Position numbers and translations under genes: made by a program. A stretch of DNA of 64,000 nt. Source: Gammaproteobacteria bacterium. Lineage in GTDB: Bacteria; Pseudomonadota; Gammaproteobacteria; Thiotrichales; Thiotrichaceae. Below are positions 3,420 to 19,647 of this stretch, in pieces (position 1 is the stretch's first letter; each line of letters begins with the position of its first letter). The notes under the pieces are model-generated. The model was not told the DNA's origin and ran no database searches. It saw only the letters and a list, made by a program, of their open reading frames with translations. The stretch is from contig JAHJJD010000058.1 of the NCBI GenBank assembly GCA_018822845.1, positions 20,354-84,353 on the forward strand. Direction: 5' to 3'.

Positions 3420-5846
3420 ATGACCGATAACAGCTTGCATGTGGAATCTTCCGACTGTTTTCATTGCGGTCAGCCGATCCCCGCTGGTGCGCATTACCGG
3501 GTGGCGATTGATGGCAGCAAGCGGGACATGTGCTGCACGGGCTGTCAGGCAGTCGCTACGGCAATTGTGGAAAACAACCTGACGGACTATTACCGTTTCC
3601 GCACCACGATTGGTGACAAGCCTGAAGATCTGGTGCCGGAAGCATTGCGCAAGCTACAGGTCTACGATTCGCCGGAATTGCAGAAATCCTTTGTGCGCGA
3701 TACCGATGGTAATACCCGTGAGGCATCGCTGATACTGGAAGGCATTGTCTGTGCTGCCTGTGTGTGGCTGAATGAGCATCATGTCAAGCAGTTGCCGGGT
3801 GTGATCGACTTTGGCATAAACTATTCCACGCATCGCGCTACTTTGAAATGGGACAATAATATCATTCACTTGAGTGATGTTCTTAAGGCTATTTCTGAAA
3901 TTGGCTATCACGCTCACCCGTTTGATCCGGGTCGTCTGGAATCCCTGCAAAAGAAGGAAAAATCCGCAGCACTGCGCCGCATTGCCGTAGCGGGTCTGGG
4001 CATGATGCAGGTCATGATGATTGCCGTTGCCATGTATATCGGGGTGGCTTCCGACATGGAAACCGGGATGCGTGACTTCCTGCGCTGGATCAGTCTGGTG
4101 ATGACCACACCGGTGGTGTTCTATTCGGCACGGGTATTCTTTGCCTCAGCCTGGCGGGATTTACGGCGCGGGCGTTTCGGCATGGATGTGCCGGTATCGC
4201 TGGCGATTGGTATAGCCTACAGCGCGAGTGTGTGGGCAACCATCACGGGTGGTGGTGAAGTTTATTTCGACTCGGTGAGCATGTTTACCTTCTTCCTGCT
4301 GAGCGGGCGTTATCTGGAGATGGCGGCGCGGCACAAGGCAGGGCAAGTAGCCGAGGAACTGGTGCGGCTGATGCCTGCCACTGCAACCCGCTTGCGGGAT
4401 GGGGAGCAGGAGGTGGTGCCTGTTAGTCAGTTGGAGCCAGGTGATTTGCTACTGGTCAGGCCGGGTGAAGTAGTACCAGCAGATGGATTGGTAACGGATG
4501 GTGTCAGCAGCACCAATGAGTCCCTGCTGACGGGGGAAAGCCTGCCTTGCCGCAAGCAGCCCGGCGATGCGCTGGTGGGTGGCACGCTCAATATCGAAAG
4601 CCCCCTGACCATGCAGGTCGACAAGGTGGGTGACAATACCGTGCTGGCTTCCATCATCCGCCTGCTGGAACGCGCCCAGGCTGAAAAGCCGGAACTGGCG
4701 AGACTGGCGGAGAAAGTGGCTTCCCGTTTCGTGCCCATTATCCTGCTGATTGCCGCTGGGGTGTTTGCCTGGTGGTATCAACATGATCCGTCACAGGCGT
4801 TCTGGATCGCCCTGTCGGTGCTGGTCATCACCTGCCCGTGTGCTTTCTCGCTGGCGACTCCGGCAGCGTTGACGGCTGCTACCGGCCTGTTGACATCGCG
4901 TGGTGTGCTGACGACGCGAGGGCATGCGCTGGAGACCCTTGCGCGCATCAATCACATCATTTTCGACAAGACTGGCACGCTATCTCACGGTCAGCTTGAA
5001 GTTGTCGATTTTCAGACACTCGGCAATGCAACGGCCAGTTTCTGCAAGCATATTGCGGCGGGGCTTGAAACGGCTTCGGAACACCCCGTTGCCCATGCCA
5101 TTGCAGGACTGAGCGATAGCCCGGCGCGGGTTTCCAACCTGACGGCTGAATCTGGCCGGGGTGTGAAAGGCATTTATCAGCAGAAGCGTTACCGCATTGG
5201 TACGGAAAGTTTTGTGCGTGAACTGACTGGCACCGCCCTGCCAGAGATGCGCAGGGGCAGCGACCGTTCTGAAGTATTTCTCGGTTCTGAGGATGGCTGG
5301 CTTGCCTGTATCTCGCTTGCTGACAGGCTGCGCGAGGAGGCAGGGAGTGTCGTGCAGGAGCTGCGTTCCCTGGGCGTTGATGTCACCTTGCTGAGTGGCG
5401 ATACGCCCGAAATGGTGAACACCGTTGCGCAGCAACTGGATATTCCCCATGCGCATGGCGGGCAGTTGCCGGATGGCAAGCTGGCATACCTGCGCGGTTT
5501 ACAGGAGCAGGGTGCTGTGGTGGCCATGGTTGGCGATGGGGTGAATGATGCGCCCGTACTGGCTGGGGCGCAGGTTTCCATTGCGATGGGTAGCGGCTCC
5601 CAGTTGGCGCAGGCTAGTGCGGACATGGTGCTGTTGTCGGAGAACCTGCATCAACTGCCTTTCTCCATCCAGACAGCCCGGCGGATGCAGGCTATCATCA
5701 AGCAGAATTTTGCCTGGACTATTCTTTATAATTTATTGGCAATTCCTTTGGCCGCATCCGGGTTAATAGCGCCATGGATGGCTGCAATTGGCATGTCCGC
5801 CAGTTCCCTTATTGTAGTCTTGAATGCACTACGTCTTAAAAGCTGA
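3420..5846 (+). CDS. ccoI: Copper-exporting P1B-type ATPase for cbb3 oxidase assembly
   Basis: CcoI pumps copper across the inner membrane for insertion into the CcoN active site. The 808-residue protein starts with a Cys-rich metal-binding segment (CFHCG, CCTGC), then a heavy-metal domain with CAAC at 111-114. Membrane helices follow, with the CPC transport motif at 472-474. The phosphorylation site DKTGT has Asp516, and the hinge reads GDGVNDAP. Gene order ccoG-ccoH-ccoI-ccoS separates it from general CopA exporters. Its start overlaps nothing and follows ccoH by 5 bases, consistent with one operon. Confidence 0.93.
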   Translation: MTDNSLHVESSDCFHCGQPIPAGAHYRVAIDGSKRDMCCTGCQAVATAIVENNLTDYYRFRTTIGDKPEDLVPEALRKLQVYDSPELQKSFVRDTDGNTREASLILEGIVCAACVWLNEHHVKQLPGVIDFGINYSTHRATLKWDNNIIHLSDVLKAISEIGYHAHPFDPGRLESLQKKEKSAALRRIAVAGLGMMQVMMIAVAMYIGVASDMETGMRDFLRWISLVMTTPVVFYSARVFFASAWRDLRRGRFGMDVPVSLAIGIAYSASVWATITGGGEVYFDSVSMFTFFLLSGRYLEMAARHKAGQVAEELVRLMPATATRLRDGEQEVVPVSQLEPGDLLLVRPGEVVPADGLVTDGVSSTNESLLTGESLPCRKQPGDALVGGTLNIESPLTMQVDKVGDNTVLASIIRLLERAQAEKPELARLAEKVASRFVPIILLIAAGVFAWWYQHDPSQAFWIALSVLVITCPCAFSLATPAALTAATGLLTSRGVLTTRGHALETLARINHIIFDKTGTLSHGQLEVVDFQTLGNATASFCKHIAAGLETASEHPVAHAIAGLSDSPARVSNLTAESGRGVKGIYQQKRYRIGTESFVRELTGTALPEMRRGSDRSEVFLGSEDGWLACISLADRLREEAGSVVQELRSLGVDVTLLSGDTPEMVNTVAQQLDIPHAHGGQLPDGKLAYLRGLQEQGAVVAMVGDGVNDAPVLAGAQVSIAMGSGSQLAQASADMVLLSENLHQLPFSIQTARRMQAIIKQNFAWTILYNLLAIPLAASGLIAPWMAAIGMSASSLIVVLNALRLKS

Positions 5847-12373: not shown

Positions 12374-13549
12374 GTGGATATACAACTTTCTGCGCGCGTC
12401 GGGCGCGTCAAACCATCTCCTACGCTCGCCATTACTGCATTGGCGGCCCAACTCAAGGCTTCAGGGCGCGACATCATCGGCCTCGGCGCGGGTGAACCGG
12501 ATTTCGACACGCCAGAGCACATCAAACAGGCGGGTATCGAAGCCATCCAGAAAGGTGAAACCCGTTACACCGCTGTTGATGGCACGCCAGCGCTGAAACA
12601 GGCGATTATCCGCAAGTTCAAGCGCGACAACGGGCTGGATTTCACCCCGAAACAGATTCTGGTTTCCTGTGGCGGCAAGCAAAGTTTCTTCAACCTGTGC
12701 CAGGCACTGCTGGACAAGGGTGATGAGGTCATCATTCCGGCACCGTACTGGGTTTCCTACCCGGACATGGTGTTGCTGGCGGATGGTGAGCCGGTAATTG
12801 TGGAAGCAGGGCAGAGCGAAGGTTTCAAACTGTCTGCCGAAAAGCTGGAAGCTGCGATTACGCCCAAAACCCGTCTGTTTGTGATCAATAGCCCATCCAA
12901 CCCGACTGGCGTGGCCTACACGCTGGAAGAACTGGCTGCGCTGGGCGAAGTGTTGCGCCGTCATCCGCAGGTGCTGATTGCGACCGACGACATGTATGAA
13001 CACGTCATGTTCGGTGGTCGTCAGTTCGTCAACATTCTCAACGCTTGCCCCGACTTGTACGAGCGCACCATTGTGCTGAATGGCGTTTCCAAGGCGTATT
13101 CCATGACTGGCTGGCGTATCGGTTACGCGGGCGGCCCGGAAAAGCTGATCCAGGCGATGAGCATGGTGCAGTCACAGAGCACTTCCAACCCGACTTCCAT
13201 TTCGCAGTATGCTGCCGTGGTGGCGCTGGATGGCGACCAGAGTTTCATCCAGACCATGGTCAGTGCGTTTGAACAGCGTCATGCGTTTGTGCTGAATGCT
13301 TTCAATGCGATGGATGGGGTGGAATGTTTGCCTGCCGATGGCACCTTCTACAGCTTCCCGAATGTGGAAGGCATGATCAAGCGGCTGGGGCTGGAAAACG
13401 ACGCCGCATTGGCAAGCTACCTGCTCGATCAAACGGGCGTGGCGGTGGTGCCGGGGTCTGCATTTGGGCTGGAAGGGCATATCCGTATTTCCTTCGCGAC
13501 CAGCATGGCCAATCTGGAGAATGCACTGGGGCGGATTGCTTCGGTGTAA
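12374..13549 (+). CDS. Pyridoxal-phosphate aspartate aminotransferase (class I, subgroup Ib)
   Basis: The enzyme transfers amino groups between aspartate (or an aromatic or related amino acid) and 2-oxoglutarate using pyridoxal phosphate. Family hallmarks are KPSPTLAI near the N-terminus, GLGAGEPDFDTP, NSPSNPTG and the PLP-binding lysine in NGVSKAYSMTGWRIGY. I place the start at GTG 12374, giving about 391 residues that begin MDIQLS like close relatives; an in-frame TTG at 12344 would add ten residues. The exact substrate range cannot be read from the sequence. Confidence 0.88.
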   Translation: MDIQLSARVGRVKPSPTLAITALAAQLKASGRDIIGLGAGEPDFDTPEHIKQAGIEAIQKGETRYTAVDGTPALKQAIIRKFKRDNGLDFTPKQILVSCGGKQSFFNLCQALLDKGDEVIIPAPYWVSYPDMVLLADGEPVIVEAGQSEGFKLSAEKLEAAITPKTRLFVINSPSNPTGVAYTLEELAALGEVLRRHPQVLIATDDMYEHVMFGGRQFVNILNACPDLYERTIVLNGVSKAYSMTGWRIGYAGGPEKLIQAMSMVQSQSTSNPTSISQYAAVVALDGDQSFIQTMVSAFEQRHAFVLNAFNAMDGVECLPADGTFYSFPNVEGMIKRLGLENDAALASYLLDQTGVAVVPGSAFGLEGHIRISFATSMANLENALGRIASV

Positions 13550-13559
13550 AGAAAAAGAA

Positions 13560-13656
13560 AGAAACCCCTCCTAACCTCCCCTTGTCAGGGGAGGGACAAG
13601 AAAGTGCCGTCTCTCCTAGCTCCTCCCCTGACAAGGGGAGGCCGGGAGGGGTTTCT
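13560..13656. repeat. Large inverted repeat (paired palindromic units)
   Basis: Two 35-base arms (13560-13594 and 13622-13656) are inverted copies matching at 32 of 35 positions. Each arm also contains its own smaller palindrome of the form CCTCCCCTTG/CAGGGGAGG. This is the structure of paired REP-like elements. It lies between the aminotransferase gene and the DGR target gene and may also end transcription in both directions. Confidence 0.85.
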
Positions 13657-13690
13657 TCTCCCGACGTTCCGCAGAAATTACTTTCAATAT

Positions 13691-13730
13691 GGTTTATGAT
13701 CCGTTCATCAGAACGAATGATCAGTAAACC
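13691..13730 (+). promoter_or_regulatory. Imperfect palindrome directly before the DGR target start
   Basis: GGTTTATGATCCGTTC (13691-13706) can pair with 13711-13730 (GAACG, TGATCA, TAAACC blocks, with small bulges) around an ATCA loop. It ends two bases before the ATG of the TIR-FGE gene, so in mRNA it would cover the ribosome-binding region; in DNA it could be an operator. Confidence 0.5.
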
Positions 13731-13732
13731 GA

Positions 13733-15388
13733 ATGCACGACATTTTCCTCAGTTATTCGACACAAGACCGCGAGCGCTTGCAGCCGCTGTTTCAGGCATT
13801 GGAACGGCAAGGCTGGTCGGTGTTTTGGGATCACCGCACCATCGACATCGGCGAGCACTGGAGTAAAAAGATCAACCGGGCGATACGCACTAGCAAGTGT
13901 GTAGTGGTGGTGTGGTCAAAAGCGTCTGTTGATTCTGAATGGGTGCTGGAAGAGGCAAATATCGGCAAACAACGCAATGTGTTGCTCCCGATCCAGATTG
14001 ATGCGGTGGATATTCCAGTGGGTTTCACCATGCGCCAGACAGGGGACTTTGCTCACTGGGATGGTGATGTCAACGATTTGCAGTTTATCCGGCTGGCTGA
14101 AAAAGTCGGGGAGTTGGTGGCGCAGCATGATGCTGAGCAAGCCCGGCTAGAGGCAGTAGCTGCCGCAGAAAAGACGCAGCTTGCTAATGAAAAGAAAGCT
14201 GCTGAGCAACGGGCACGCGAGAAAGCTGAACAACAACGCCGTGCAGAAGCTGAAGCACGCCAGCGCCACGAAGCCGCAGAACAGGAACGGCGGGCAAAAG
14301 AAAAAGCAGCCGCTGAACAAAAAGCGCGTGAAGCCGCCAGGCAAAAGCAATTGGCGCAGGAACGTGCCGCTGAACAAAAAGCTCGTGCAGAAGCCGAACG
14401 CCAAGCCAAAATCAACAACCCAGACTCGCCCGGCAAAAAAATCCCGTTGATTCCTGTTCTTCTGCTATCCACCGCAGTTCTGGGCGGAGGCGGTTATTAC
14501 TGGCATCAAAAGGAAAATTCCCCTGTAGGAGCCAGCCCTGCTGGCGATTCCCCCGTACAGCAAACCAAGGAAGAATCGCTTGCGGGGCAAGCTCCTACAG
14601 TAGCCCCTCAAGCATCAGTAGAAATACCGACTGCCTCTCCTGACAAGAAACCTTTTGAGCCTGAGATGGTTGCAATTGATGGCGGTACTTTCATGATGGG
14701 CTGTGACGGCAAGCGTGACGATGTAGAAGGCGGTTGTGTCGATGATGAAAAACCTGCTCACAAAGTCACTGTTAACAGTTTCCAGATGGGTAAGTATGAA
14801 GTGACGTTTGACCAATGGGACGAATGCGAGAAAGCTAAAGTTTGTCCCCATGTCGAAGATCAGGGTTGGGGGCGTGGCGACCTTCCAGTGATCAATGTCA
14901 GTTGGGATGATATTACCCGGAAATATATCCCGTGGTTGAACAAGGAAACGGGTAAAACTTACCGACTGCCAACGGAAGCGGAATGGGAATACGCAGCACG
15001 TGGTGGTACGGATACCGCTTATCCTTGGGGCGATAAGGCGAGTCATGAATTTGCTAATTATGGCAAGGATGAATGTTGTGATGGGTTGGCTAGTGGTAAG
15101 GATAAATGGGTCTATACTTCTCCTGTAGGCAGCTTTGCAGCGAATGGTTATGGCCTTTATGACATGAACGGTAATGTGTGGGAATGGGTACAGGATCGTT
15201 GGCATAGTGATTACAAAGGTGCGCCAGTTGATGGTGGTTCTTGGGAGTCTGGCGATAGCGCCGGCCGCGTGTTGCGCGGTGGCTCGTGGAACTACGCGCC
15301 GAGGAACGTGCGTTCTGCTTACCGCAGCGACAGCGCGCCGGGCCACCGGCACAACCTCTTCGGGTTCCGCTTGGCCTCAGGTCAATAG
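13733..15388 (+). CDS. DGR target protein: TIR domain, coiled coil, membrane helix, FGE-sulfatase/C-type-lectin domain
   Basis: The 551-residue protein is the variable protein of a diversity-generating retroelement. It begins with a TIR domain (about 1-125; MHDIFLSYSTQDRERL, and a Glu-containing SEWVLEE segment like the NADase-type TIRs). A long Ala/Glu/Lys/Arg/Gln coiled coil (about 130-226) and one membrane helix (237-257, with Lys-Lys on the N side) follow. A linker then leads into an FGE-sulfatase domain of C-type lectin fold (about 309-551), with GGTFMMG, RLPTEAEWEYAARGG and GNVWEW. The catalytic Cys pair of true formylglycine-generating enzymes is not seen in the C-terminal region, so a binding role is likelier than catalysis. 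Positive charges before the helix suggest TIR in the cytoplasm and the lectin-like domain outside the membrane. Residues 509-551 are the variable repeat. A repeat element lies inside the linker (263-289). Confidence 0.9.
   Translation: MHDIFLSYSTQDRERLQPLFQALERQGWSVFWDHRTIDIGEHWSKKINRAIRTSKCVVVVWSKASVDSEWVLEEANIGKQRNVLLPIQIDAVDIPVGFTMRQTGDFAHWDGDVNDLQFIRLAEKVGELVAQHDAEQARLEAVAAAEKTQLANEKKAAEQRAREKAEQQRRAEAEARQRHEAAEQERRAKEKAAAEQKAREAARQKQLAQERAAEQKARAEAERQAKINNPDSPGKKIPLIPVLLLSTAVLGGGGYYWHQKENSPVGASPAGDSPVQQTKEESLAGQAPTVAPQASVEIPTASPDKKPFEPEMVAIDGGTFMMGCDGKRDDVEGGCVDDEKPAHKVTVNSFQMGKYEVTFDQWDECEKAKVCPHVEDQGWGRGDLPVINVSWDDITRKYIPWLNKETGKTYRLPTEAEWEYAARGGTDTAYPWGDKASHEFANYGKDECCDGLASGKDKWVYTSPVGSFAANGYGLYDMNGNVWEWVQDRWHSDYKGAPVDGGSWESGDSAGRVLRGGSWNYAPRNVRSAYRSDSAPGHRHNLFGFRLASGQ
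14523..14600. repeat. Paired REP-like element (family B) inside the DGR target gene
   Basis: CTGTAGGAGC (14523-14532) with a CCAGC-CCT-GCTGG hairpin and CGATTC is followed by the inverted unit GAATCGC...GCTCCTACAG (14573-14600). The pair sits in frame in the linker after the membrane helix. The same unit occurs at 38387-38414. Confidence 0.85.
15257..15385 (+). repeat. DGR variable repeat (VR)
   Basis: These 129 bases at the 3' end of the target gene align without gaps to 17114-17242. In the first 124 positions there are 16 mismatches, and every one is at an A in the template copy (9 A-to-G, 4 A-to-T, 3 A-to-C). The changes alter 13 amino acids (511, 521, 522, 530, 532-535, 537, 538, 540, 542, 543). 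The 3' segment 15361-15380 is unchanged and then a G/C difference occurs, which is the expected place of the initiation-of-mutagenic-homing sequence. The stop codon follows directly. Confidence 0.97.
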
Positions 15389-15418
15389 GCCGCTACTCAG
15401 GACGGCGGGATGCCGCAG

Positions 15419-15433
15419 GCTGCCGGAGGCAGC
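15419..15433. promoter_or_regulatory. Hairpin/cruciform downstream of the VR
   Basis: GCTGCC (15419-15424) pairs with GGCAGC (15428-15433) around a GGA loop, 33 bases after the VR end. DGR targets often have a DNA hairpin just after the homing site that promotes retrohoming, so this is a candidate. A shorter GGCCT/AGGCC pair (15373-15377 with 15387-15391) spans the VR end itself. Confidence 0.45.
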
Positions 15434-15526
15434 TCTTGTGGCGCGGCCAGCGTAGCCAAATGCAGGGGCGTTGTCGGAGCAGCCCCGGCATTTGGTGGAG
15501 CAGGACGTGCCACAGCGGGGGTGCAG

Positions 15527-15557
15527 GGGGCTGCAAGCCCCTTGCTTCGCGTTTTTT
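15527..15557 (+). terminator. Terminator-like hairpin between DGR target and HRDC gene
   Basis: GGGGCT (15527-15532), loop GCA and AGCCCC (15536-15541) form a stem; a run of six T residues follows at 15552-15557 after a ten-base gap. The 209-base gap between target and HRDC gene otherwise holds no credible gene. This may limit read-through from target to the RT genes. Confidence 0.4.
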
Positions 15558-15597
15558 GTTGTTGATAAGCGTGTTTTTTCCACGGAAGGGAAAAGCT

Positions 15598-16107
15598 ATG
15601 AAACTGAAATTTTTCAGTGTGGATGCGCTGGAGCCTGACGATGATCAATCCGTGGTCGATAGTTTCTGTACACGCCACCGTCTGATTTCCATAGACAAAC
15701 GTTTTGTTGAACGTGGCGATTATTGTTACTGGTCGGTCTGTGTCACCTATCTGGAGCCATCTTCTTCACCTGCCAAACCCACCAAAGCCGTCGACAAGAA
15801 AGGGCGGGTTGATTACCGCGAAGCTCTCCCGCCGGAAGATTTTGCCCGCTATTCGCGCTTGCGCGATTTACGTCGTGAACTGGCCGAAGCAGAGGGAGTG
15901 CCCGTTTATACGGTATTCTCCAACGCGCAACTGGCCAAAATGGTGACAGAACGGGTTAACACTGCTGTTGCTTTGGCAAAGATTGACGGGGTAGGTGACG
16001 CCAAGCTGGAAAAGTATGGCGCACAGTTTTTGCAGTTGCTGAAAGCCGAATTCCCACCGGCCAGTAAACCAGTGGATAAAGGCGACAATGAAACGCAGAA
16101 AGATTGA
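15598..16107 (+). CDS. HRDC-domain protein, DGR accessory factor
   Basis: The 169-residue protein starts at an ATG preceded by a purine-rich ribosome site (GAAGGGAAAAG). The C-terminal half (about 78-150) is a typical HRDC fold: FARYSRLRDLRRELAEAEGV, then VPVYTVFSNAQLAKM and a GVGDAKLEKYG segment, as in RecQ and RNase D. HRDC proteins bind nucleic acid. DGRs usually carry an Avd accessory protein; a subset is known with an HRDC gene instead, and this gene sits in that place and overlaps the reverse transcriptase start by 20 bases. The N-terminal 75 residues are unassigned. Confidence 0.85.
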   Translation: MKLKFFSVDALEPDDDQSVVDSFCTRHRLISIDKRFVERGDYCYWSVCVTYLEPSSSPAKPTKAVDKKGRVDYREALPPEDFARYSRLRDLRRELAEAEGVPVYTVFSNAQLAKMVTERVNTAVALAKIDGVGDAKLEKYGAQFLQLLKAEFPPASKPVDKGDNETQKD

Positions 16108-17095
16108 CCTTGCAGACATCACAGACTGGCATAATCTCCATCTGGCTGTATGGAAAGCCGCACGCGGTAAGCGCCATCGCCCCGATGTCATCCGTTTTAC
16201 CAACCGTCTGGACTACAATCTCGGTAAACTGGCAGATGACATTATGCAGGCCAAAGTCCCTTATGGCCGTTACCGCGAGTTTCACATCCACGACCCCAAA
16301 GAACGCCTGATCCATGCTGCCTGCTTTGAAGACCGGGTGTTGCACCACGCCATCATGAATCTGGCCGAGCCAGTGTTTGAACGCACACTGGTTCCGACCA
16401 CCTACGCTTGTCGCCCAGAGAAGGGGGTACACAAAGCCATCCAGCAGGTACAGGCTAACCTGCGGCGCTATCCGTGGTATGTGAAAGTGGATATTTCCGG
16501 TTATTTTCCCAACATTGACCATCATGTTCTTTACAGGCTGTTACAGCACCGTTTCAAGGGGGATGATTTCCTCTACCTGTTGTGGCGGATCATTGATTCT
16601 TGTCCTGCCCAACCGGGAAAAGGTTTACCGATTGGCTCCCTGACTTCGCAGCATTTCGCCAATTATTATCTGGATGGCGCAGACCGTTTCCTGCTGGAGT
16701 TTTGTAAGGTATGGGGGCATGTCCGCTATATGGATGATACGCTGTTCTGCTGCGACAGTCGGGAGGCAGCGCAAGTCAAGCTGGTGGAACTACGTGACTG
16801 GCTGCGCGACCAGCGCCAGTTACAGGTCAAACCTGATCCACAAATCAACTGTAGCAGCCGGGGAGTCAGTTATTGTGGCTATCGGGTTTTGCCCGGAGCG
16901 GTTTTGCTTAGCCGTCGCAAACGCCAGCGTTACCAGCAGTTGCGCCTGCAATGGGAGCAAGCATGGCTGGATGGAGAAATTACCGAACTGGAATTGCAGC
17001 AGGTTTACCAGTCTGTCCATGCCATCACGCTCCATGCTGACAGCGATGAATGGCGCAGGCAAAACTTGCGTTTGTACCCGTCACCGGCTATGTAA
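16088..17095 (+). CDS. DGR reverse transcriptase
   Basis: This 335-residue enzyme should copy the template-repeat RNA into mutated cDNA. It has the RT domains in order: VKVDISGYFPNIDH (first catalytic Asp), the motif-4 sequence GLPIGSLTSQHFANYYLD, where the IGxxxSQ form marks DGR-type enzymes, and the catalytic YMDD near residue 217. It lacks the extra N-terminal maturase features of group II introns and the length fits DGR RTs. Its start lies within the HRDC gene, which suggests translational coupling. The template repeat begins 18 bases after its stop. Confidence 0.95.
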   Translation: MKRRKIDLADITDWHNLHLAVWKAARGKRHRPDVIRFTNRLDYNLGKLADDIMQAKVPYGRYREFHIHDPKERLIHAACFEDRVLHHAIMNLAEPVFERTLVPTTYACRPEKGVHKAIQQVQANLRRYPWYVKVDISGYFPNIDHHVLYRLLQHRFKGDDFLYLLWRIIDSCPAQPGKGLPIGSLTSQHFANYYLDGADRFLLEFCKVWGHVRYMDDTLFCCDSREAAQVKLVELRDWLRDQRQLQVKPDPQINCSSRGVSYCGYRVLPGAVLLSRRKRQRYQQLRLQWEQAWLDGEITELELQQVYQSVHAITLHADSDEWRRQNLRLYPSPAM

Positions 17096-17113
17096 ATGAG
17101 TGGGTGGTAGTCA

Positions 17114-17242
17114 AGCGCCAACCGCGTGTTGCGCGGTGGCTCGTGGAACAACACGCCAAGGAACGTGCGTTCTGCTAACCGCAACAACAACACGCCGGAC
17201 AACCGGAACAACAACATCGGGTTCCGCTTGGCCTCAGCTCAA
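17114..17242 (+). repeat. DGR template repeat (TR)
   Basis: This non-coding copy is the fixed template. Read in the target frame it is rich in AAC codons (Asn), plus ACG, ATC and GAC, the arrangement that gives the widest residue choice when adenines are randomised. Of 32 adenines in 17114-17237, 16 differ in the VR and 16 are kept; no other base differs. The first non-adenine difference is C17238 (G in the VR). An extra A-to-T may exist at 17113. The TR must be transcribed, probably together with the RT gene. Confidence 0.96.
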
Positions 17243-17256
17243 ACGTCAGCAGTAGC

Positions 17257-17275
17257 GGCAGTTGACCAGACTGCC
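17257..17275 (+). promoter_or_regulatory. Hairpin just after the template repeat
   Basis: GGCAGT (17257-17262) pairs perfectly with ACTGCC (17270-17275) around a seven-base loop, 15 bases past the TR. It may structure the 3' part of the TR RNA. The rest of 17276-17425 holds nothing recognised. Confidence 0.4.
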
Positions 17276-17425
17276 ATCCTGTCCTTGATGCGTTTGCATC
17301 ATGGCGAAAAGCCAATGCCCCCCGGTATGTTAGTAGGGAGACTGCCGAACATTTGCCGGTGGGGTTTCTTCCTGAATTTCATACTATTATCAGACTCTAA
17401 TTCAGGTCTATTTTATGGTGGGAAT

Positions 17426-17674
17426 ATGCCAACCCGAATCCTCGCCGATACCGTCGCCAGCATTTCCGAGTTCAAGGCGAACCCGATGAAGGTCATGTCC
17501 TATGACAAAGGTAATGTCGTTGCTGTGCTGAACCACAATGAACCTGCGTTTTACTGCATTCCTCCCACCTTGTATGAAATGCTGATGGAGCGTCTGGATG
17601 ATCTGGAACTGCTCGCCAAGGTGCGTGAGCGTGAAAATGAACCCAGCATCAAGGTGGTGCTGGATGAGCTATGA
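17426..17674 (+). CDS. Phd/YefM (StbD-like) family antitoxin
   Basis: The 82-residue protein starts at ATG 17426 with GGTGGGA just upstream. It shows the Phd/YefM pattern: a short N-terminal DNA-binding fold (ILADTVASISEFKANPMKVM), the core VVAVLNHNEPAFYCIPP and a C-terminal charged helix that would wrap a RelE-type toxin. The partner toxin frame starts inside its last codons but ends after 14 residues, so this looks like an orphan antitoxin. It may still repress its own promoter. It lies between the DGR and housekeeping genes. Confidence 0.8.
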   Translation: MPTRILADTVASISEFKANPMKVMSYDKGNVVAVLNHNEPAFYCIPPTLYEMLMERLDDLELLAKVRERENEPSIKVVLDEL

Positions 17675-17707
17675 ACTGGCTTTCAAGCAAATTACCAAGC
17701 AGCTTTA
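17663..17707 (+). pseudogene. Truncated RelE/StbE-type toxin remnant
   Basis: An ATG overlapping the antitoxin end gives MSYELAFKQITKQL and then a stop. MSYELAFK is a common opening of RelE/StbE-type toxins, and the overlap with the antitoxin gene is the normal arrangement, but the rest of the toxin is gone. I infer a deletion that left about 14 codons. Confidence 0.5.
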
Positions 17708-17734
17708 AACGCCTGCACGATGAGTGAGGGGGCT

Positions 17735-18253
17735 TTATTCCATAAACTCCAGCCGTTCCGCCAGCTTGTCGAGCGCTGCCTGTGCGCACTCGGCGTCCTT
17801 GTCACCGCCCGGTGCGCCACTGACTCCAACCGCACCCAGCAATGAGCCGCCGCTTTCGATTTTCAGACCGCCATCCAGCACCATGATGCCATCCACCTCG
17901 TTCATTTCGTCCTTGATGTCGGCGCGGTTGGTGCGGAAATCGGCAGAGCTGACGCCTGACATGATGACTGCATTGGCTTTTTCCTCGGCAACCTGGAGGG
18001 TGAAGCGGTTGGCCATGGTGTCGCGCAACAGTGCCTGCACGGAAGCACTACGGTCAACTACCGCAGCCGCCACGTTGTAGCCTTTTTCCCGGCAGGCGAG
18101 TACGGCTTCGCGGGCAATGTCCGTCGCCAGTTCCATGGAAATCTGCTTGACGTTGATGGCGTCAGGGGCTTTTTTTGCTTCTTCTTCGCCGTGCGCGGCA
18201 GTCAGTGAAAGCAGTAATGCAGTGACAAGGGGGGCTATCAGCAGCTTTTTCAT
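17735..18253 (-). CDS. Exported GlcG/HbpS-family protein (DUF336)
   Basis: The mature part belongs to the GlcG/HbpS (DUF336) family, whose members include haem-binding and redox-sensing proteins and the uncharacterised GlcG. I chose ATG 18253, which has GGAGAA upstream and begins a signal peptide (MKKLLIAPLVTALLLSLTAAHG). The family pattern LATDIAREAVLACREKGYNV, VVDRSASVQALLRD and the Gly-rich end GAVGVSGAPGGDKDAECAQAAL are present. A periplasmic location is predicted. It follows miaB at a distance of 29 bases on the same strand. Its ligand cannot be told here. Confidence 0.85.
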   Translation of the reverse strand: MKKLLIAPLVTALLLSLTAAHGEEEAKKAPDAINVKQISMELATDIAREAVLACREKGYNVAAAVVDRSASVQALLRDTMANRFTLQVAEEKANAVIMSGVSSADFRTNRADIKDEMNEVDGIMVLDGGLKIESGGSLLGAVGVSGAPGGDKDAECAQAALDKLAERLEFME

Positions 18254-18282
18254 GCGTTTCTCCAATGGCAAGTGATGCAGGT

Positions 18283-19647
18283 TTAGACGGGAAGCATCTC
18301 CATCCTGGCAGCTTCGCTTTCCACGGCAACGACCACGCCGCGCAGGGAGTTGGGCAATGCTTCAGTGATTTTGATGTCGACGAATTTGCCAATCAGGCGT
18401 TGATGACCGTCGAAATTGACCCAGCGGTTGTTTTCGGTGCGCCCGGCAAACTGGTTGGGGTCTTTCTTGGACGGGCGTTCCACCAATACGCGCTGCACCG
18501 TGCCGACCATGTTGCGGCTGATGGCGTGCGCCTGTTCCAGAATGCGCGCTTGCAGGTGTTGCAGACGGGCTTTTTTCACCGCCATCGATACATCGTCGGG
18601 CAGGCTGGCGGCAGGCGTGCCGGGGCGGGCGCTGTAAATGAAGCTGAAACTGAAATCGAATCCGGTGTCGTCGATCAGTTTCATGGTGTCGGCAAAATCC
18701 TGCTCGGTTTCGCCGGGGAAGCCAATGATGAAATCGGATGACAGGCTGATATTGGGGCGAATCTTACGCAGCTTGCGGATTTTGGCCTTGTATTCCAGCG
18801 CCATGTGATTGCGTTTCATCGCTGCCAGAATGCGGTCGGAACCACTTTGCACCGGCAGATGCAGGTGATTGACCAGTTCCGGCACATCTGCGTAAACCTG
18901 GATCAGGTTGTCGCTGAATTCATTCGGGTGCGAGGTGGTGTAGCGGATGCGGTCAATACCATCCACTGTCGCCACGTAGGTAATGAGTAAGGCAAGGTCA
19001 GCGATTGAGCCGTCATCCATTTTGCCCCGGTAGGCATTCACGTTTTGCCCCAGCAGGTTGACCTCACGCACGCCTTGCGCCGCCAGTTGCGCAACTTCGG
19101 CAATCACGTCGTCGAAGGGGCGGGAAATTTCCTCACCACGGGTGTAGGGCACGACGCAAAACGTGCAGTACTTGCTGCAACCTTCCATGACCGAGACGAA
19201 GGCGGTCGGGCCTTCGGCGCGTGGTTCCGGCAGGTTGTCGAACTTTTCAATTTCAGGGAAGGAAATATCCACCACCGGGGTATGTTCCGAGCGCACCTGC
19301 CGGATCATGTCGGGCAGGCGGTGCAGGGTTTGCGGGCCGAACACCACGTCGACCACCGGGGCGCGTTCACGCAGGGCTTCGCCTTCCTGACTGGCTACAC
19401 AACCGCCAACACCGATGACGACGTGCGGGTTGCGCTGCTTGATCTCTTTCCAGCGGCCCAGTTGCGAGAAGACTTTTTCCTGTGCCTTCTCACGGATCGA
19501 GCAGGTGTTCATCAATAAAACATCTGCCTGTTCCGGGTCATCGGTCAATTCCATGCCTTGAGCATGATGCAGTACGTCCAGCATTTTGGCGGAATCGTAC
19601 TCGTTCATTTGGCAACCGTGTGTTTCGATAAAGATTTTGCCTGCCAT
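18283..19647 (-). CDS. miaB: tRNA-2-methylthio-N6-dimethylallyladenosine synthase
   Basis: MiaB adds the methylthio group to i6A37 in tRNAs that read UNN codons. The 454-residue protein has an N-terminal UPF0004 domain with its cluster-binding cysteines ([18 protein letters not shown]). The radical-SAM motif CSKYCTFC and a C-terminal TRAM domain follow. I chose ATG 19647 because the protein then begins [15 protein letters not shown] as in relatives; the frame is open 60 bases further upstream. Confidence 0.95.

Follow-up and report, generated by a model that had tools for sequence, protein, structure and literature searches.

A diversity-generating retroelement in a Thiothrix genome and a structured element behind its variable repeats

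A stretch of 64,000 nucleotides from a gammaproteobacterial genome (GCA_018822845.1, contig JAHJJD010000058.1, positions 20,354 to 84,353; below, the window) carries a diversity-generating retroelement (DGR) cassette at positions 13733-17242. The genome, taken here as a member of the genus Thiothrix, has 4.0 Mb in 130 contigs and is 99.3% complete; the window locus lies on the contig that we call C39. The cassette is a genuine DGR. In our judgement it is probable that this complete DGR left almost adenine-only changes in an adjacent gene that joins a TIR domain to an FGE end, that it likely acts in trans on at least four other FGE-ended genes, and that it is probably guided by a conserved element of predicted fold behind the variable repeats. 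Thiothrix nivea forms filaments and rosettes (PMC3368414; here and below, statements about published work refer to the parts of the cited papers that were available to us).

The cassette and its target protein

We aligned the variable repeat (VR) with the template repeat (TR1) over 129 nt. The alignment is free of gaps, as the initial annotation of this stretch, made from the letters alone, had claimed. The two repeats differ at 17 positions. Sixteen of these are TR adenines, read in the VR as G (9), T (4) or C (3), and the other is a C-to-G change at 15381. The annotation had counted 16 differences in 124 bases, all on TR adenines. This count is exact for 15257-15380; the 17th, at 15381, falls within the final five bases of the interval given for the VR and is not at an adenine. 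It sits in the initiation of mutagenic homing (IMH) sequence, which reads GGTCAA in the VR and GCTCAA in the TR. In the core (TR positions 7-120), 16 of 30 adenines and 0 of 84 other bases are changed (Fisher p=1.1e-11), which bears out the view that chance point mutation would not give this pattern. The 30 mutable adenines of TR1 are spread over 18 codons and allow about 1e17 possible proteins. No stop codon can be reached through adenine changes in TR1.

The gene order of target, HRDC, reverse transcriptase (RT) and TR, proposed in the same annotation, was confirmed by open reading frames, Pfam and alignment. The HRDC and RT genes overlap by 20 nt, and both frames are open. DGR reverse transcriptases carry the motifs IGxxxSQ and YxDD; the 335-aa frame has IGSLTSQ and YMDD, as predicted. 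In a structure-database search the best solved relative of the RT was 8ub7, named ‘Reverse transcriptase’ (E 2.4e-48), which we take to be the BPP-1 enzyme. Target, HRDC gene, RT and TR are all open or undamaged, and the call of intact parts holds. Thus the defining parts of a DGR are present: an adenine-specific TR/VR pair, the RT motifs, a lectin-fold target with a 3′ VR, an HRDC gene, an IMH/IMH* pair and a stem-loop 3′ of the VR. The call of a complete DGR also stands because the adenine-specific pattern recurs on other contigs and in other Thiothrix genomes. New here are the target type (TIR-FGE), the remote VRs, the second TR and the structured element behind the VRs.

The predicted model of the target has a mean pLDDT of 82.6 and a pTM of 0.50. 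In the TIR domain, E74 is invariant across 37 aligned sequences and aligns with the Glu of AbTIR, which we presume to be catalytic. By sequence alignment, E74 is the Glu after the conserved tryptophan that marks TIR NADases. The FGE part resembles PvdO (TMt 0.80) and, less closely, Treponema denticola TvpA (2y3c; 0.61). A cysteine pair forms the active site of FGE enzymes, and the fold-comparison output named the FGE mutants C336S and C341S. In the target, NYAPRNV lies opposite the CHxSYC region of the enzymes, and the pair is absent. Because this pair is lacking, the FGE part is probably a binding domain rather than an enzyme.

Table 1. Features of the cassette, its target protein and the element behind the VR (window positions)
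Feature	Position	Strand	Basis or remark
Target gene, 551 aa	13733..15388	+	ORF, Pfam, predicted model
TIR domain, aa 4-109	13742..14059	+	Pfam TIR_2; E74 where AbTIR has Glu
Long predicted helix, aa 116-225	14078..14407	+	predicted model
Hydrophobic stretch, possible membrane segment, about aa 237-257	14441..14503	+	by eye from translation; model confidence low here
FGE-sulfatase (C-type-lectin-type) domain, aa 310-548	14660..15376	+	Pfam; cysteine-pair region of the enzymes replaced
VR	15257..15385	+	VR/TR alignment; adenine-templated changes within 15263-15359
IMH-like VR 3′ end including stop codon	15362..15388	+	VR GGTCAA, TR GCTCAA
Structured element	15386..15555	+	common to dispersed VRs of the TR1/TR2 family; begins directly after target stop codon
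Hairpin 1, 7 bp, GGA loop	15418..15434	+	counterpart of known DGR stem-loop; 32 nt 3′ of VR
Long interrupted stem (helices 2 and 3)	15438..15514	+	holds all but one of the 9 doubly changed pairs
Last hairpin	15523..15545	+	T run a few bases on; no call in terminator scan
HRDC accessory gene, 169 aa	15598..16107	+	PF00570, E 1.3e-18
DGR-type RT, 335 aa, IGSLTSQ and YMDD	16088..17095	+	ORF, domain and structure-database matches
TR1	17114..17242	+	begins 18 nt 3′ of RT stop codon
Structured TR 3′ flank	17243..17370	+	fold z -4.02; TR2 flank on C20 largely similar

An inverted repeat with 36-nt arms, 92% complementary, lies between the aminotransferase and target genes (window 13559-13594 and 13622-13657). 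Downstream of the cassette, a small open reading frame (17426-17674) has a Phd/YefM antitoxin match below the cut-off. An Rfam scan of window positions 13000-18500 gave no match at the gathering score.

Remote variable repeats, other cassettes and relatives

The annotation had proposed a search of the rest of the genome for further VRs. We ran this search with the TR and found matches on five other contigs (C3, C29, C9, C76 and C121) and a second TR (TR2) on C20. The target is caspase-FGE on C3, kinase-FGE on C29 and C76, and CHAT-FGE on C121. On C9 it is nSTAND1-FGE, and a separate frame upstream encodes TIR and the beginning of nSTAND1 (L061:6016-8814, two frames). The core changes of each remote VR were scored against the better-matching TR, TR1 or TR2. 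At C3, 22 of 29 adenines and 1 of 85 other bases were changed. The corresponding counts were 17/29 and 0/85 at C29, 18/29 and 1/85 at C9, and 20/30 and 1/84 at C76. The C121 CHAT-FGE VR gave 13/30 and 8/84 against TR1, and 12/29 and 8/85 against TR2. All six VRs of the TR1/TR2 family have GGTCAA where the TR has GCTCAA. At positions 86, 87 and 120, where TR1 and TR2 differ from each other, C39 and C76 are TR1-like and C29 is TR2-like. The DGR likely acts in trans, because the TR1/TR2 family matches VRs on five other contigs; on these sequences, action of one TR family on the remote VRs is the simplest reading and a likely one.

The dispersed VRs might instead be gene duplicates or products of gene conversion between paralogs, with no retrohoming in trans. 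The targets are indeed paralogous FGE genes, and C39, C3, C29, C9 and C76 share 64-94% identity in the sequence that follows the VR. However, duplication or conversion would not confine the differences almost wholly to TR adenines at four remote loci. The same adenine sites carry different letters between loci, and the upstream FGE code (300 nt before the VRs) is 56-77% identical among the six target genes. We therefore regard this explanation as highly improbable.

Genome-wide, we counted four TR families and two intact RTs. The second intact RT belongs to a cassette on C3; it is 89% identical to the window RT, its frame is open, and the contig ends inside the TR. The cassette on C76 is degenerate (L058, C76:22545-23048). 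Here a single open frame runs from the HRDC start straight into the final RT residues, and a TR follows at the contig end. The ends of C3 and C76 overlap the start of C20 by 125 and 119 nt; TR2 therefore belongs to one or both of them. C16 carries a second DGR (L064, C16:6961-9717) with a TR at C16:7253-7385 and two VRs. Their changes are 18/29 at adenines and 0/104 at other bases, and 15/29 and 1/104. The C16 RT is broken up over several frames. Its first two FGE targets, of 1193 and 404 aa, were checked and had no further Pfam match. Two more TR/VR pairs belong to a NACHT-FGE gene on C22 (L069, C22:4194-7684; 15/29 adenines, 0 other bases) and to a TIR-nSTAND1-FGE gene on C121 (L063, 43203-43698; 17/28 adenines, 3 other bases). 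An RVT_1 search of the genome found no RT on C22 or C121. The C22 pair and the pair at C121:43203 are orphans, perhaps served in trans.

These cassettes bear on whether the DGR has recently died in this strain, the VR/TR differences being left over from past homing. The C76 sister cassette is degenerate, the C16 RT is in fragments, and several Thiothrix genomes that have no close RT still hold elements and VR-like ends. On the other hand, the RT, HRDC gene, target and TR of the window are open or intact, the core has no difference at the 84 non-adenine positions, and the C3 RT is a second intact copy. A dead system is thus improbable in our view.

The adenine-specific pattern was also found in relatives. 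Among loci with a related RT, 20 of the 22 named loci that were run (22 of 24 fetched) had an adenine-specific TR/VR pair. The two pairs of T. fructosivorans (G004) have 10/32 adenines and 1/100 other bases changed, and 19/32 and 1/100; those of G010 have 16/32 and 1/101, and 20/33 and 1/101. One pair of T. subterranea (G012) has 13/37 and 1/99. The pairs of G011 are less clean (16/32 and 4/101; 16/33 and 7/101). The TR of T. nivea (G008) is 96% identical to TR1. At T. nivea L084 (about 4857-5172, minus strand), the VR-like end of an FGE gene is followed by a TR-typical flank (GCTCAAACG...) and not by the element; a TR-VR exchange is possible.

Flanking genes were compared in 15 relatives. In G011 (L179), the upstream aminotransferase, HbpS and MiaB genes are adjacent and the cassette is absent, the sole such case. 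L179 is likely an empty site, and flanking genes lying side by side without the cassette suggest that the cassette was inserted as a block. In G007, MiaB directly follows the aminotransferase. The remaining 13 of the 15 relatives show neither gene within the 1.5 kb fetched and are uninformative.

The structured element behind the variable repeats

The own genome has six sequence matches to the element at 15386-15555, all of them at TR1-type VRs (partial at C121), and relatives have seven. The RNA fold of 15380-15560 has a z of -4.48 and beats 200 of 200 shuffles. We aligned 12 sequences with 36 pairs, leaving out the partial C121 element (alignment A3). In this alignment 96.2% of cells are paired, compared with 92.2% in shuffles. 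Changes on both sides occur in 9 of the 36 pairs, compared with 2.6 in shuffles (0 of 500 reach 9) and at most 3 in slid versions; related sequences may beat shuffles without structure, and a structure derived from the alignment tends to beat slid versions.

Searched against 16 Thiothrix genomes, a covariance model of the element located 27 distinct sites, spread over 12 of these genomes; 15 of the 27 were outside the training set. These sites are 35 rows minus 8 antisense duplicates, and 150 first-look candidates were scored per genome. Other genomes account for 21 sites: 18 with an FGE sequence directly upstream by tblastn (one shortened), 1 with such a sequence by eye only, and 2 with none; these two are the weakest full-length matches outside the own genome. 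In total, 25 of the 27 sites, in 11 genomes and including 6 in the own genome, stand behind FGE gene ends. Among 20 sources in the own genome, significant matches were found only at VRs of the TR1/TR2 family; C121 scored weakly (E 4e-4), and the best match elsewhere had E 0.07. Outside the genus, the model gave no significant match in 24 loci (best E 0.14).

To compare hairpins behind VRs, we counted GRA- or GRNA-loop hairpins with stems of at least 5 pairs. They occur at 10 of 14 held-out VR calls, at 9 of 40 exploratory VRs and in 85 of 1480 controls. The canonical hairpin is therefore missing at most VRs of nearer relatives under this strict rule. In the held-out set, 2 of the 11 loci yielded no pair, and 1 of the 14 calls (L167:1267) probably has TR and VR swapped. 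Because the GGA hairpin of 7 bp sits 32 nt behind the VR, and such hairpins are enriched over controls, the element most likely contains the known DGR stem-loop plus a longer stem, by analogy with described systems. Folding behind VRs is modestly enriched in relatives (median z -1.54; below -2 in 14 of 39, compared with 2 of 71 random stretches).

Two other candidates were dropped. A CGGAGC loop was tried as a general rule behind VRs; it was found at 29 of 41 exploratory VRs (18 of 24 loci) and in 102 of 1440 random stretches. At held-out loci it was found at 3 of 14 VR calls, compared with 121 of 1480 controls. The CGGAGC loop may be limited to close RTs. A second element class (G004, G008, G010 and G011; alignment A4, 7 sequences) was weak, with 2 of 22 pairs changed on both sides, a result matched by 41 of 500 shuffles. 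A4 left out C59 of the own genome and the second G010 VR, which holds an N, although both had been included in the folding runs. The strongest folding behind VRs outside Thiothrix was seen at the Methylococcales loci L096 and L097 (z -3.0 to -9.5, different sequence). These loci possibly carry a separate long element.

The element could also be an RNA feature of the target transcript, acting in 3′ UTR stability, termination or regulation and not in homing. It has a strong RNA fold, stands directly 3′ of the stop codon, has a T run close to its terminal hairpin and is kept in genomes without a close DGR RT. However, the significant matches among the 20 sources of the own genome are all behind VRs of one TR family and none is behind other FGE genes. 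The element begins at the site expected for the DGR stem-loop and includes the GGA-loop hairpin; its DNA fold is equally good against shuffles (z -4.53), and the terminator scan made no call. We consider a purely transcript-level role rather unlikely.

Several observations weigh against a DGR that acts in trans and is guided by the element. The C121 CHAT-FGE VR has 8 non-adenine changes and therefore has not been kept up to date; from its sequence it is an older member of the TR family. The C3 and C9 VRs are TR2-like except at position 120, and this mismatch could mark a 3′ crossover or a third TR. None of four VR-like ends in T. nivea is adenine-specific against the TR (13, 28, 26 and 20 non-adenine changes). 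Two own copies of the element, on C3 and C76, have loops TTT and CGT instead of GGA. Stretches behind TRs are as structured as those behind VRs (10 of 24 and 14 of 39 below z -2). G010 gave no model match despite its clean adenine-specific pairs. At E 1e-10, G006, G007 and G014 have no match to the window RT; in G001 and T. lacustris (G005), RT matches reach at most 29% identity. All five genomes still have the element and VR-like ends. G007 has no RVT_1 match whatsoever. That the element is kept where no close DGR RT was found speaks against a role limited to homing. In G007, four elements stand behind FGE-type ends on C14, C24, C32 and C36; they are either relics or have a role beyond homing.

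Proposed mechanism and known systems

We infer DGR activity, a ligand and a defence role from these features, and the mechanism would run as follows. The RT would make mistakes at A when copying TR RNA, and the resulting cDNA would take the place of the VR upstream of the IMH. The element at 15386-15555 would promote homing, like the short stem-loop of phage BPP-1. With no FGE cysteine pair, the lectin-like domain would bind variable ligands such as phage or neighbour molecules. Such binding would activate whichever domain is attached (TIR, caspase, kinase, STAND or CHAT). The cell would thereby possess a set of alarm or cell-death sensors made in advance.

A broader proposal, which we put forward tentatively, is that the element serves as an address tag that can be moved between genes. 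The DGR would then take as a client any gene whose 3′ end has an FGE lectin domain followed by the tag, and one error-prone copying machine with a single template family would serve an alarm repertoire of TIR, caspase, kinase, STAND and CHAT proteins, resembling adaptive immunity.

The diversified proteins may instead sense development, kin or environmental signals. DGR targets of filamentous cyanobacteria with kinase, caspase-like and TIR domains were interpreted as signal or regulatory proteins (PMC7517822), whereas TIR, caspase, CHAT, NACHT and nSTAND domains are typical of conflict systems (PMC7159879; PMC10907252). We see a non-immune role as a real though somewhat doubtful possibility. 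Traits of the clade-5 conflict systems are present here, namely effector and NTPase domains with a diversified lectin end, and a multicellular host with several DGR loci.

The genus has cultured species (T. nivea and T. subterranea) and offers a compact case, in which one template family marked sensors with different predicted outputs. The element may be a concrete, mutable candidate for deciding which genes get diversified. Two questions become testable: the purpose of a cellular DGR and the choice of remote targets. If the element does work as a tag, it would also serve to steer diversification towards proteins of choice.

Published work already describes TIR, kinase, caspase-like, CHAT and STAND proteins that DGRs diversify, remote targets included (PMC10907252, PMC7517822, PMC7159879). 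Our literature search found no paper combining ‘Thiothrix’ with ‘diversity-generating retroelement’. By title and abstract, it found no description of a long compound element behind the VR in the DGR literature, and one may exist in body text. As far as this search goes, the long, covarying, class-specific element behind the VRs appears to be the novel part.

Thiohalocapsa PB-PSB1 (PMC10907252) is alike in having multiple DGR loci per genome, degenerate cassettes and a multicellular host, and in joining TIR, kinase, NACHT, nSTAND1 or CHAT to a diversified C-type-lectin/FGE end. It has 9 loci, 15 targets and 21 VRs in four locus classes, whereas in the window genome one TR family reaches six contigs. 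The main text of that paper does not use the words HRDC, hairpin, cruciform or stem-loop. Cyanobacterial DGRs (PMC7517822) also have dispersed kinase, orthocaspase, TIR and CHAT targets with a lectin end. Cruciforms were proposed there as possible markers of remote targets; an element sequence, structure or covariation test is not given in the available text. The Treponema denticola DGR (PMC4891356) shares the HRDC gene overlapping the RT gene, the FGE-type variable protein TvpA and remote targets. Its accessory gene lies between TR and RT, and the available text does not mention TIR. Phage hairpins carry GRNA loops, and nanoarchaeal hairpins GRA loops (PMC4372165). The three-base GRA loops of nanoarchaeal DGRs compare with GGA in the window; their hairpin lies inside the target gene, and a larger element is not mentioned in the available text.

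The DGR of BPP-1 (PMC3240598, PMC12875486) likewise has a hairpin 3′ of the VR, and its accessory gene is Avd instead of HRDC. The BPP-1 stem-loop is required for efficient homing, and the IMH with the hairpin is enough to retarget a foreign gene (PMC3240598). In E. coli the hairpin behind the VR was beneficial and not strictly essential (PMC12875486). The BPP-1-type hairpin is a single stem of 7-10 bp with a GRNA four-base loop, within 24-35 bp. In contrast, the window element departs from this phage type: it spans about 170 nt, and its GGA three-base loop on 7 bp is joined by a long stem with interruptions and by a third hairpin.

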